64,000 nucleotides of DNA from Streptomyces sp. BHT-5-2 (GTDB lineage: Bacteria > Actinomycetota > Actinomycetes > Streptomycetales > Streptomycetaceae): contig NZ_CP081496.1 of NCBI RefSeq assembly GCF_019774615.1, positions 5,270,001 to 5,334,000 on the forward strand, in the 5' to 3' direction. Below are positions 20,655 through 22,485 of the stretch, piece by piece. The position numbers were made by a program, and so were the translations under genes. Under the pieces are notes generated by a model. It was given only the letters and a program-made list of their open reading frames with translations. It had not been told where the DNA came from and made no database searches. Numbering within the stretch: the first letter of the stretch is position 1; each line of letters begins with the position of its first letter.

Positions 20655-20910
20655 CCCACGTTGTCGGCTTTCCCGCCGTAGGGGTTCGCCTTGCTTGCGC
20701 CTGGCGGCGCGTTGCCGGTCCGCTGCGCGGGGGCTGTTCCGGCCCGCTTCGCGGGCGTTGTTGGTCCGCTGCGCGGGGCTGTTGGGTGCGGTGACGGGCC
20801 TCCGGGGCAGGGGGTGTGTCCGGACTGCTGCGCTTTACGTCCGGACACACCCCCTGCCCCTCCGACCCGTCCCCTCCCGTTGTGGGTCATGAAAACCCAT
20901 AGACGGGGCA
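20655..20910. repeat. Left arm of giant imperfect inverted repeat
   Basis: About 256 bases that match, in reverse complement, the block 21012-21306. The outer end (CCCACGTTGTCGGCTTTCCC and on to TAGGGGTTCGCC) is nearly identical to its partner. It contains the recurring unit GGTCCGCTGCGCGGGG, the variant GGCCCGCTTCGCGGGC, and a 22-bp perfect hairpin. No credible gene is present; frames through it are just translated repeats. Confidence 0.9.
20804..20860. repeat. Perfect 22-bp hairpin inside the left arm
   Basis: Stem 20804-20825 (GGGGCAGGGGGTGTGTCCGGAC) pairs perfectly with 20839-20860. The 13-base loop is TGCTGCGCTTTAC. The loop is the exact reverse complement of the loop in the right-arm hairpin, while the stems differ. 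Confidence 0.92.
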
Positions 20911-21011
20911 ACGGTTGCCGGGCTCCTGCGGGCTCTGGACTGATGGGCGGCCGTCCCTCAACGAGTGACCGTCAGCCCTCGACAAGCGACCGTTGGCGGA
21001 CCAGCCTGCTC

Positions 21012-21306
21012 AGCCCCTACCCACCGTCTTATGACCACTCACGGGAGGGGACGGGCCGGAGGGGGTGGTGTGTCGGACGTAAAGCGCAGCAGTCCGACAC
21101 ACCACCCCCTCCGGCCCGGCACCGCACCCAACAGCCCCGCGCAGCGGACCGGCAACGCCCGCGAAGCGGGCCGGAAACGCCCCGCGCAGCGGACCGGCCC
21201 CGCGCAGCGGACCGGCAACACAATCAATGCGCCGCAGGCGCAAGGGCGAAGCGCCGCCAGGCGCAAGAAAGGCGAACCCCTACGGCGGGAAAGCCGACAA
21301 CGTGGG
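21012..21306. repeat. Right arm of giant imperfect inverted repeat
   Basis: About 295 bases complementary to 20655-20910. Compared with the left arm it carries one extra copy of the unit CCCCGCGCAGCGGACC and an extra stretch of about 30 bases containing CAATCAATGCGCCGCAGGCG near 21220-21250. It ends 18 bases before the pimA stop codon. The roughly 100-base centre between the arms (20911-21011) has no repeat structure that I can see beyond two related CGAGTGACCGT/CAAGCGACCGT words. Confidence 0.9.
21053..21117. repeat. Perfect 26-bp hairpin inside the right arm
   Basis: Stem 21053-21078 (beginning GGGCCGGAGGGGGTGG, ending TGTGTCGGAC) pairs perfectly with 21092-21117. The loop GTAAAGCGCAGCA is the reverse complement of the left-arm loop. 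It may act as a terminator for the pgsA-acyltransferase-pimA operon. Confidence 0.92.
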
Positions 21307-21324: not shown

Positions 21325-22485
21325 TTAGCCCTTCGCCAGCCACCGACGCCCCCGTACCCCCACCCGCTCGTCCGTCGCGACGGCCGAGGCGCCGGCCGCC
21401 ACGGTCTCGTAGACGGCGAGGATGTCCGCGCCGACCGTCGACCAGTCGAAGCGACGTACGTGCTTGGCGCCGCGTTCGCCGAGTTCGGCCAGCCGGTCGG
21501 GGGCGTTCAGGAGGCGGATCGCGGTGGCGGCGAGCGCGTCCGCGTTCTCGTTGGTGAAGAGTTCGCCGGCCTCGCCCTGGTCCAGGACCTGGGCGAACGC
21601 GTCGAGATCGCTGGCCAGTACGGGCGCGCCGGCGGACATCGCCTCCACGAGGATGATGCCGAAGGACTCGCCACCGGTGTTGGGCGCGACATAGACGTCC
21701 ACGCTGCGCAGCAGCCGCGCCTTGTCCTCGTCGGAGACCATGCCGAGGAACTCGACCCGGGAGCGCAGTTCGGCGGGCAGGCCGGCGACCGCCTCGTCCT
21801 GGTCGCCGCGGCCGGCGACCAGCAGCCGGGCGTCGGGGACCGCGGCGAGGATCGCGGGCAGCGCCTTCATCAGGATCGGCAGGCCCTTGCGGGGCTCGTC
21901 GATCCGGCCGATGAAGCCGATGGTGCGGCCCTGCCACGCGGGCTCGGGCTCGGCCCGGGCGAAGAAGTCGACGTCCACGCCGTTGGGGATCACCACCGCG
22001 TCGCCGCCGAGGTGCTCGACCAGGGTGCGGCGGGCGTACTCGCTGACCGCGATCCGGGCGCTGATCTTCTCCAGGGCGGGCTGGAGGATCGGGTACGCGG
22101 CGATCATGGCGCGGGAGCGCGGGTTGGAGGTGTGGAAGGTGGCCACGATCGGGCCCTGCGCCGCCCAGCAGGCGAGCAGGCCCAGGGAGGGCGAGGCGGG
22201 CTCGTGGATGTGGATGACGTCGAAGGCGCCGTTCTGCAGCCAGCGGCGGACCCGGGCGGCCGAGAGGAAGCCGAAGTTCAGGCGGGCGACCGAGCCGTTG
22301 TAGGGCACGGGGACGGCGCGGCCGGCCGGGACGACGTAGGGCGGCAGCGGGGTCTCGTCGTCGGCGGGGGCCAGGACGGAGACGTCGTGGCCGAGCCGGA
22401 TCAGGTGCTCGGCCAGATCTCGGATGTGGAACTGCACGCCGCCGGGGACGTCCCAGGCGTACGGGCAGACGATGCCGATCTTCAC
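21325..22485 (-). CDS. pimA: Phosphatidylinositol alpha-mannosyltransferase (PimA-type, GT4)
   Basis: A 386-aa GT-B glycosyltransferase that adds the first mannose from GDP-mannose to phosphatidylinositol on the inner membrane face. The N-terminus KIGIVCPYAWDVPGGVQFH and the lines VPYNGSVARLNFG and DVIHIHEPASPS are very close to mycobacterial PimA. The donor site includes IGFIGRIDEPRKGLPIL and the E-x7-E motif in GGESFGIILVEAM. The start is GTG 22485, overlapping the acyltransferase stop by four bases (GTGA). Confidence 0.93.
   Translation of the reverse strand: MKIGIVCPYAWDVPGGVQFHIRDLAEHLIRLGHDVSVLAPADDETPLPPYVVPAGRAVPVPYNGSVARLNFGFLSAARVRRWLQNGAFDVIHIHEPASPSLGLLACWAAQGPIVATFHTSNPRSRAMIAAYPILQPALEKISARIAVSEYARRTLVEHLGGDAVVIPNGVDVDFFARAEPEPAWQGRTIGFIGRIDEPRKGLPILMKALPAILAAVPDARLLVAGRGDQDEAVAGLPAELRSRVEFLGMVSDEDKARLLRSVDVYVAPNTGGESFGIILVEAMSAGAPVLASDLDAFAQVLDQGEAGELFTNENADALAATAIRLLNAPDRLAELGERGAKHVRRFDWSTVGADILAVYETVAAGASAVATDERVGVRGRRWLAKG

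Follow-up and report, generated by a model that had tools for sequence, protein, structure and literature searches.

An inverted repeat in Streptomyces sp. BHT-5-2 belongs to a clade-specific family of hairpins at gene ends

Between a GT4 glycosyltransferase gene that we take to be pimA-like (pimA below) and the next gene, Streptomyces sp. BHT-5-2 carries a 652-bp inverted repeat at 20655-21306 of the window, the whole 64,000-nucleotide stretch of DNA that was analysed. What is this element, and what keeps its structure in place? A preliminary description had noted two inner hairpins whose stems appeared to covary, and had named a replication structure, mobile palindromes and an operon-end element as candidates. 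We conclude that the window element belongs, as one of many copies, to a clade-specific hairpin family that sits at gene ends in some members of Streptomyces. The family is apparently undescribed; no title or abstract start describing it was found in the open-access literature searched (subscription papers lie outside that scope).

Pairing between the arms falls into three stretches: 20655-20723 against 21238-21306 (69-nt end arms, 91% complementary), 20730-20807 with 21106-21183 (90%) and 20857-20890 with 21031-21064 (85%). This bears out the giant inverted repeat with two inner hairpins first described (Table 1). Hairpin 1 has exactly the perfect stem given at first; that of hairpin 2 is also perfect, and measures 27 bp at 21052-21118 rather than 26 bp at 21053-21117. 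The two 13-base loops are exact reverse complements, and the arms differ in their number of CCGCTGCGCGG units, both as originally stated. Hairpin 1 is extended by a 3x3 internal loop and an outer stem, and we infer that its working fold is that of the strand bearing GNA/GNA; as RNA, 20790-20874 folds at -66.8 kcal/mol on the plus strand and -74.0 kcal/mol on the minus strand. Hairpin 2 of the window copy has no internal loop. Folded as one DNA strand, the whole element reaches -343 kcal/mol, compared with -171 (sd 5.3) in 20 dinucleotide shuffles (z = -32).

This copy is of the co-directional kind, with one end behind pimA, 18 bases past the stop codon (21325-21327), and the other ahead of the next gene. 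The element was said to lack a gene, and indeed none was called inside it (ORFs there were not called as genes) and the called genes end short of it on both sides. Genes were called with a home-made codon-usage finder and checked by eye within the window; a GC-frame finder had missed pimA. When the window was searched against Rfam 15, tRNAs alone scored above a gathering cut-off, with nothing of the element among them. Sub-threshold matches numbered 40, 38 of them to microRNA hairpin models and the other two to the Streptomyces RNA Scr6106 (27.2 and 26.0 bits, cut-off 52.5).

Table 1. Features of the inverted repeat and its flanking genes (window positions).
Feature	Position	Strand	Description
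Flanking gene, 181 aa	20075..20620	-	no Pfam family; start 34 bases from the element
Whole element	20655..21306	.	inverted repeat, ends CCCACGTTGTCGGCTTTCCCGCCG and its reverse complement
Left outer arm	20655..20789	+	end motif, short palindromes GCGCCTGGCGGCGC, CCGCTGCGCGG x2, CCCGCTTCGCGGG
Hairpin 1 with 3x3 internal loop and outer stem	20790..20874	-	TCC/TCC on +, GGA/GGA on -
Hairpin 1	20804..20860	+	perfect stem 22 bp, loop TGCTGCGCTTTAC at 20826-20838
Centre between hairpins	20875..21030	.	within the core (loop to loop plus 30 bases)
Hairpin 2	21052..21118	-	perfect stem 27 bp, loop TGCTGCGCTTTAC on - (21079-21091)
Right outer arm	21119..21306	-	CCGCTGCGCGG x3, CCCGCTTCGCGGG, GCGCCTGCGGCGC, GCGCCTGGCGGCGC, then end motif
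Flanking GT4 glycosyltransferase gene	21325..22485	-	

The loop TGCTGCGCTTTAC occurs exactly 44 times in this genome. Five further family members have the loop TGCTTCGC; they are among eight loops with one mismatch, the other three places being left outside the count. The genome total is 49 hairpins with the same 13-base loop and one variable base, none of them within a called gene. Perfect pairing extends over at least 15 pairs in 46 of the 49, and over 4, 5 and 10 pairs before the first mismatch in the other three. Stem types such as GGGGCAGGGGGTGTGTCCGGAC and GGGGGTGGTGTGTCGGAC recur at many places. The hairpins occupy 32 gaps, 17 of which hold two or more hairpins (inverted pairs), and 12 of 16 facing pairs are 251-254 bases apart. 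Copies that consist of arms only exist too. In two pairs, L083 (G000:C1:6197195-6198271) and L084 (G000:C1:847298-848121), the loops are separated by 1064 and 811 bases, where about 254 is usual; by eye, one of these pairs encloses an apparent whole gene and the other apparent gene fragments.

The preliminary description had pointed to relatives as the place to look for the loop with paired stems, and copies were counted there. With a search pattern that fixes four stem pairs beside the loop, the loop core was found in 14 of 392 genomes of the genus, eight of which have ten or more copies of the exact pattern. Matched with two free bases and up to one mismatch, the end motif is present in 12 of the 392 and occurs 28 times in this genome. 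An order-wide sample of 60 genomes had the loop pattern in two, both of the same genus, and in none of the 15 from other genera. Among 60 other genomes of the genus, six matched the core DNA, all of them weakly and in part. In a scan of named genomes with the same four-pair pattern, the matches listed (at least 120 stretches) are from Streptomyces only, and they include S. noursei, S. lydicus, S. albospinus, S. sioyaensis, S. kronopolitis, CT34 and MspMP-M5. Draft contigs start or stop within about 35 bases of the hairpin loop at L098, L127, L144, L134 and L161; thus, draft assemblies may be interrupted at the hairpins, and draft copy numbers may be too low. A long-loop form, whose loop of about 63 bases has the same 13 bases first and is conserved across different stems, was seen at L117, L119, L216 and L280, and its motif also at L291 and L292. 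It is possibly the ancestral form or the result of an insertion into the loop.

The family keeps its places between species. Gap pairs in which both flanking genes match numbered 47 in a first set, which excludes hairpins near contig ends, and 76 after the genome G080 was added (both flanking proteins, of 60 aa or more, matching at 1e-20). A hairpin-bearing ortholog exists in at least one sampled species for 17 of the 32 gaps of this genome. Seven of the 32 are occupied in G080 too, where about one would be expected; this expectation, and the Poisson values with it, rest on a rough estimate of gap numbers.

The pimA gap itself holds a two-hairpin element in this genome, G080, NRRL F-4489, G191 and G405, and the stems differ between these genomes while being paired. 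G210 has a two-hairpin element beside the same downstream gene, its pimA side being cut off by a contig end. Extra bases are present in one loop of G405, one of F4489 and both of G210. A short-hairpin element occupies the gap in G310 and G153, half an element in G102 and arms only in G363; in G281, where the gene lies at a contig end, the end motif is present. No element was seen at this gap in G279, G060 or G319, in which the called neighbour is not always pimA. In G207 the gap is 62 bp long and has no element, yet 24 copies are found elsewhere in that genome. An assembly artefact, a doubt raised at the outset, is very unlikely because an equivalent element lies in the same gap of separately assembled genomes. 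The family must be dispensable, since most of the genus is without it.

In the G080 copy at pimA (L250) the outer arm ends are nearly identical up to the pimA stop codon, unlike those of the other compared copies, possibly as a result of a local arm-copying event. General arm-to-arm homogenisation of the outer arms was considered and rejected (permutation p = 0.21, 27 elements with both tips found).

Comparison of the same places answers whether the stems covary. The two stems of one element, from which covariation was first read, are no test by themselves, because left and right hairpins are separate stem types that each recur genome-wide; the covariation does appear at the same place in other species. 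The 104 hairpin pairs from orthologous gaps give 1040 positions, of which 426 have changed on both sides, versus 191 expected for independent arms, and 39 on one side only, in an ungapped comparison where one indel may count as several changed positions. Of those doubly changed positions, 413 are paired in both species. Among 97 distinct stems, 94.5% of 1552 cells are paired versus 66.0% in shuffles, and 391 cells have changed on both sides versus 135; the four loop-side pairs are largely fixed by construction in both stem tests because the search pattern fixes them. Sliding the helix lowers the covariation score from 0.628 to at most 0.152. Counted by pairs in the 97 stems, neither those with a both-side change (13 versus 11.6; 31 of 500 shuffles as high) nor further pair types (39 versus 37.1; 136 of 500 as high) are clearly above the shuffles. 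The covariation figures come from all 97 distinct stems; alignment A1 consists of 62 hand-picked stems and is biased to well-paired ones. Structure is thus kept while sequence changes, as had been proposed. Hairpins that are alike within a genome and different yet paired between species suggest a working structure and not a chance palindrome.

Copies are homogenised within most genomes compared. The mean core identity of double elements is 0.806 within genomes (n=315), 0.726 at orthologous places (n=24) and 0.686 in other between-species pairs (n=2007), the last only a little below the orthologs. The core of the window copy has an identity of 0.66 to its G080 ortholog versus a median of 0.91 to paralogs in its own genome. 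Within-genome identity is low in CT34 (0.68) and CB02959 (0.64). In a second subfamily (L088, L089) a trace of place persists, with 0.66-0.74 between orthologs and 0.58-0.66 in other pairs; for S. albospinus L123 and CT34 L215 the values are 0.88 against 0.68. Sequences with N were excluded from these identities and, together with hairpins near contig ends, from the orthologous-stem, fold and internal-loop counts. Genomes also differ as wholes. The fifth loop base is G in 44 of 49 hairpins here and T in 49 of 50 in G080, and facing hairpins lie 201-211 bases apart in 11 of 17 G080 pairs versus the 251-254 typical of this genome. Short forms occupy the same slot between the same flanks and retain the TCC/TGC internal loop: GGACTTCGTCC is present at all nine G153 sites (L293-L301) and a GGACTCCGTCC form at six of seven G106 sites (L302-L307), in both cases among sites picked by the end motif alone. 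Of the long-hairpin loop core, G153 has a single copy and G106 none, and the short forms seem to have replaced most long hairpins in these two genomes. Long and short hairpins stand side by side at two of four G310 loci (L310-L311). The overall pattern suggests gene conversion between copies.

In this genome 16 of 32 hairpin gaps are convergent and none is divergent, versus 3 and 19 of 58 in the baseline, which consists of neighbouring gaps that span 150 bp or more and lack hairpins. The corresponding counts are 13 and 0 of 33 versus 1 and 19 of 40 in G080, and 37 and 3 of 74 versus 17 and 91 of 241 in other species; all Fisher tests on these counts are below 1e-4. Where the end motif faces a gene 3' end it starts a median of 17 nt past the stop codon (n=95), and where it faces a 5' end it is a median of 67 nt off (n=28). 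The element is inherited at fixed places beside gene 3' ends. Among the roles suggested at first, that of an operon-end element fits best, given the position of the outer end and the enrichment in convergent gaps. A replication structure is not supported: the 16 single hairpins in G080 show no mirror arrangement of strands on either side of the chromosome middle (6 minus and 3 plus in the left half, 6 minus and 1 plus in the right), and no replication-strand bias is evident among them.

A perfect palindromic stem is identical on both strands, so it is the imperfections that tell which strand matters. Distinct cases of A.C versus G.T mismatches number 16 to 2, the 16 being G.U on the GTAAAG strand (p=0.0013, a value too small because copies share ancestry, as with all polarity p-values here, so that the numbers give direction more than significance). 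The raw count of wobble-type mismatches is 18 to 2, with 215 of 248 hairpins free of any. Folded as RNA with a neutral loop, the GTAAAG strand has the better fold in 134 of the 173 distinct hairpins compared and its complement in 28, with 11 equal; 21 of 24 species lean to the GTAAAG strand. In 95 of 171 distinct hairpins the stem has a 3x3 internal loop that is TNC/TNC when read on the TGCT strand and hence GNA/GNA opposite; the reverse occurs in none, and 38 of the 171 have an unbroken stem of at least 24 bp. The polarity favours the strand read from the inner side of each half toward the neighbouring gene end. Strand-biased mutation could mimic it, and the test is the same for RNA and for single-stranded DNA and does not separate the two.

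We tentatively favour an RNA-level barrier at gene 3' ends, a terminator or insulator, which on the sequence evidence has perhaps not quite an even claim to be right; template-switch repair would help pairing and gene conversion would level the copies. Each hairpin, as RNA, would end or trim transcripts arriving from its far side, which might otherwise enter a convergent gene in antisense or continue into the next gene, and the two halves, back to back, would form a two-way insulator. Template switching from arm to arm together with gene conversion between copies would let stems change in both arms and then spread, while selection would discard copies that had lost their fold. This reading fits the position at gene ends, the strength of the fold, the inheritance of places and the polarity. 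A stable hairpin after the stop codon is present, as judged by fold energies and stop-codon distances. Against it, a U tract after the stem is absent: past the inner 22 bp, the 12 nt on the two sides hold a mean of 1.5 and 0.7 T. To our knowledge, terminators also need neither a conserved 13-base loop nor an internal loop, and most of the genus does without the family. From the patterns of change we infer maintenance by template switching and gene conversion, and repair bias alone could keep the pairing.

The family may instead be mobile but non-autonomous, either MITE-like or dependent on an enzyme that went unrecognised; it would have spread in an ancestor of the clade and now be mostly fixed, its gene-end sites being what was left after harmful insertions were purged. 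We regard this as unlikely. It would account for a repeat family with inverted ends and single and double forms, for the arms-only remnants, for the unoccupied pimA gap of G207 and for the adjacent long and short hairpins of G310. However, no positive evidence of mobility was obtained. A search of the genome for a Y1 transposase (RAYT, Y1_Tnp; profile PF01797) gave no match at E <= 0.001, while the same search was positive in 5 of 14 control genomes; a REP/RAYT origin was rejected on this ground. The tips of 29 two-hairpin elements have a longest direct repeat with a mean of 1.14 versus 0.90 in shuffles (99 of 500 as high) and give no sign of target-site duplication, with the tips located by one pattern, which could miss a displaced duplication. 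Carriage on plasmids or phages was rejected, no match of the element being found in plasmids and none of the core in phages. In two copies of this genome, the 0.8-1.1 kb between the hairpins holds apparent ordinary genes or fragments and, by eye, no transposase. The places common to species, including the shared G080 gaps with their roughly estimated expectation, count against this explanation. The mobile palindromes proposed at first are thus unsupported as far as ongoing transposition is concerned.

Alternatively, the element may be a functionless palindrome that maintains itself: template switching would keep the arms complementary, gene conversion would spread the current version, and selection would merely tolerate it away from promoters and genes. 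The preliminary description had attributed the kept structure to selection or to a repair mechanism, and flipped loops support the latter. Loop direction could be judged in 180 of 201 hairpins (those with a recognisable inner flank) and is the usual one in 176, reversed in three and unclear in one. One loop of L094 (G000:C2:558996-559262) is inverted, at C2:559250 of this genome on a 36-bp perfect stem, and CT34 L104, a family member, also has a reversed loop; the third match, in S. klenkii, is probably not a family member. Inverted loops and multiple compensating changes are marks of the template-switch model according to passages of PMC8794818. Deletion, extension and long-loop forms fit active remodelling, and homogenisation within genomes is as this account would have it. 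The same passages of PMC8794818, however, describe compensating change with loop inversion as rare and not enriched and a role in maintenance as less clear. Polarity in mismatches and internal loop would also be unexpected from arm copying alone, the 13-base loop is nearly fixed and the short form keeps the same internal loop. We consider this explanation unlikely.

In a structure-guided homing process, some machinery would recognise the GNA-strand hairpin and use the hairpin of one fixed gene-end site as the model for rewriting that of another, so that a new stem, loop base, spacing or short form could take nearly all sites of a genome. Such a process is suggested by the GGACTTCGTCC form throughout the G153 sites, the GGACTCCGTCC form at nearly all G106 sites and the almost uniform T in the loop of the G080 long form, and we judge it rather improbable. 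The GNA strand might also serve as a processing or binding site: as RNA it would be a substrate of RNase III or the target of a protein, or else as single-stranded DNA it would be recognised by a nuclease or a chromosome protein. This would suit a stem of about two helical turns, an internal loop of purines and a terminal loop with almost no variation (loops of the G.A type are stable in RNA as well as in DNA), but strand bias was not mirrored about the chromosome middle in the 16 G080 single hairpins, and we hold it to be decidedly improbable.

How does the family compare with known systems? REP, BIME and RAYT systems are extragenic palindromes with many copies per genome, in single and inverted-pair forms and as mosaics of modules. 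The Streptomyces family shares these features with them and with the REPIN (as treated in passages of PMC3116915), our comparison system for extragenic palindromes. It differs from them in that no Y1 transposase was found, the element is 652 bp long and most stems reach at least 17 bp, the stem varies around a conserved loop, and places are common to species. ERIC, NEMIS/Correia and RU elements are MITE-like: intergenic, inverted and non-coding, with strong folds. The hairpin family is like them in each of these respects and in its terminal inverted repeats, and unlike them in that no target-duplication signal was found, nor, in the two copies read by eye, a parent transposon, and in that copies of one genome are homogenised at places that stay the same. 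With template-switch hairpins, as far as passages of PMC8794818 describe them, it has compensating changes, stem extension and loop inversion in common, and it differs in that its many copies are dispersed, show strand polarity and conserve the loop. Of 535 highly structured 3' ends in Streptomyces clavuligerus, 353 are HS-U-lack, according to passages of PMC8269248, and the family resembles such I-shaped and HS-U-lack intrinsic terminators in its strong GC-rich hairpins at gene ends. Unlike those U-tract-less terminators, the hairpin family is far longer and has a fixed loop, a common internal loop and the character of a repeat family.

Bacterial intergenic repeats are usually explained as mobile debris. 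This family stands in contrast, with old shared places, concerted sequence turnover within genomes and pairing kept with polarity. Two questions become testable in it: how dispersed short repeats stay uniform within one bacterial genome, and whether selection or template switching is the source of compensating changes in long hairpins. The elements are also candidate natural two-way insulators for Streptomyces engineering.
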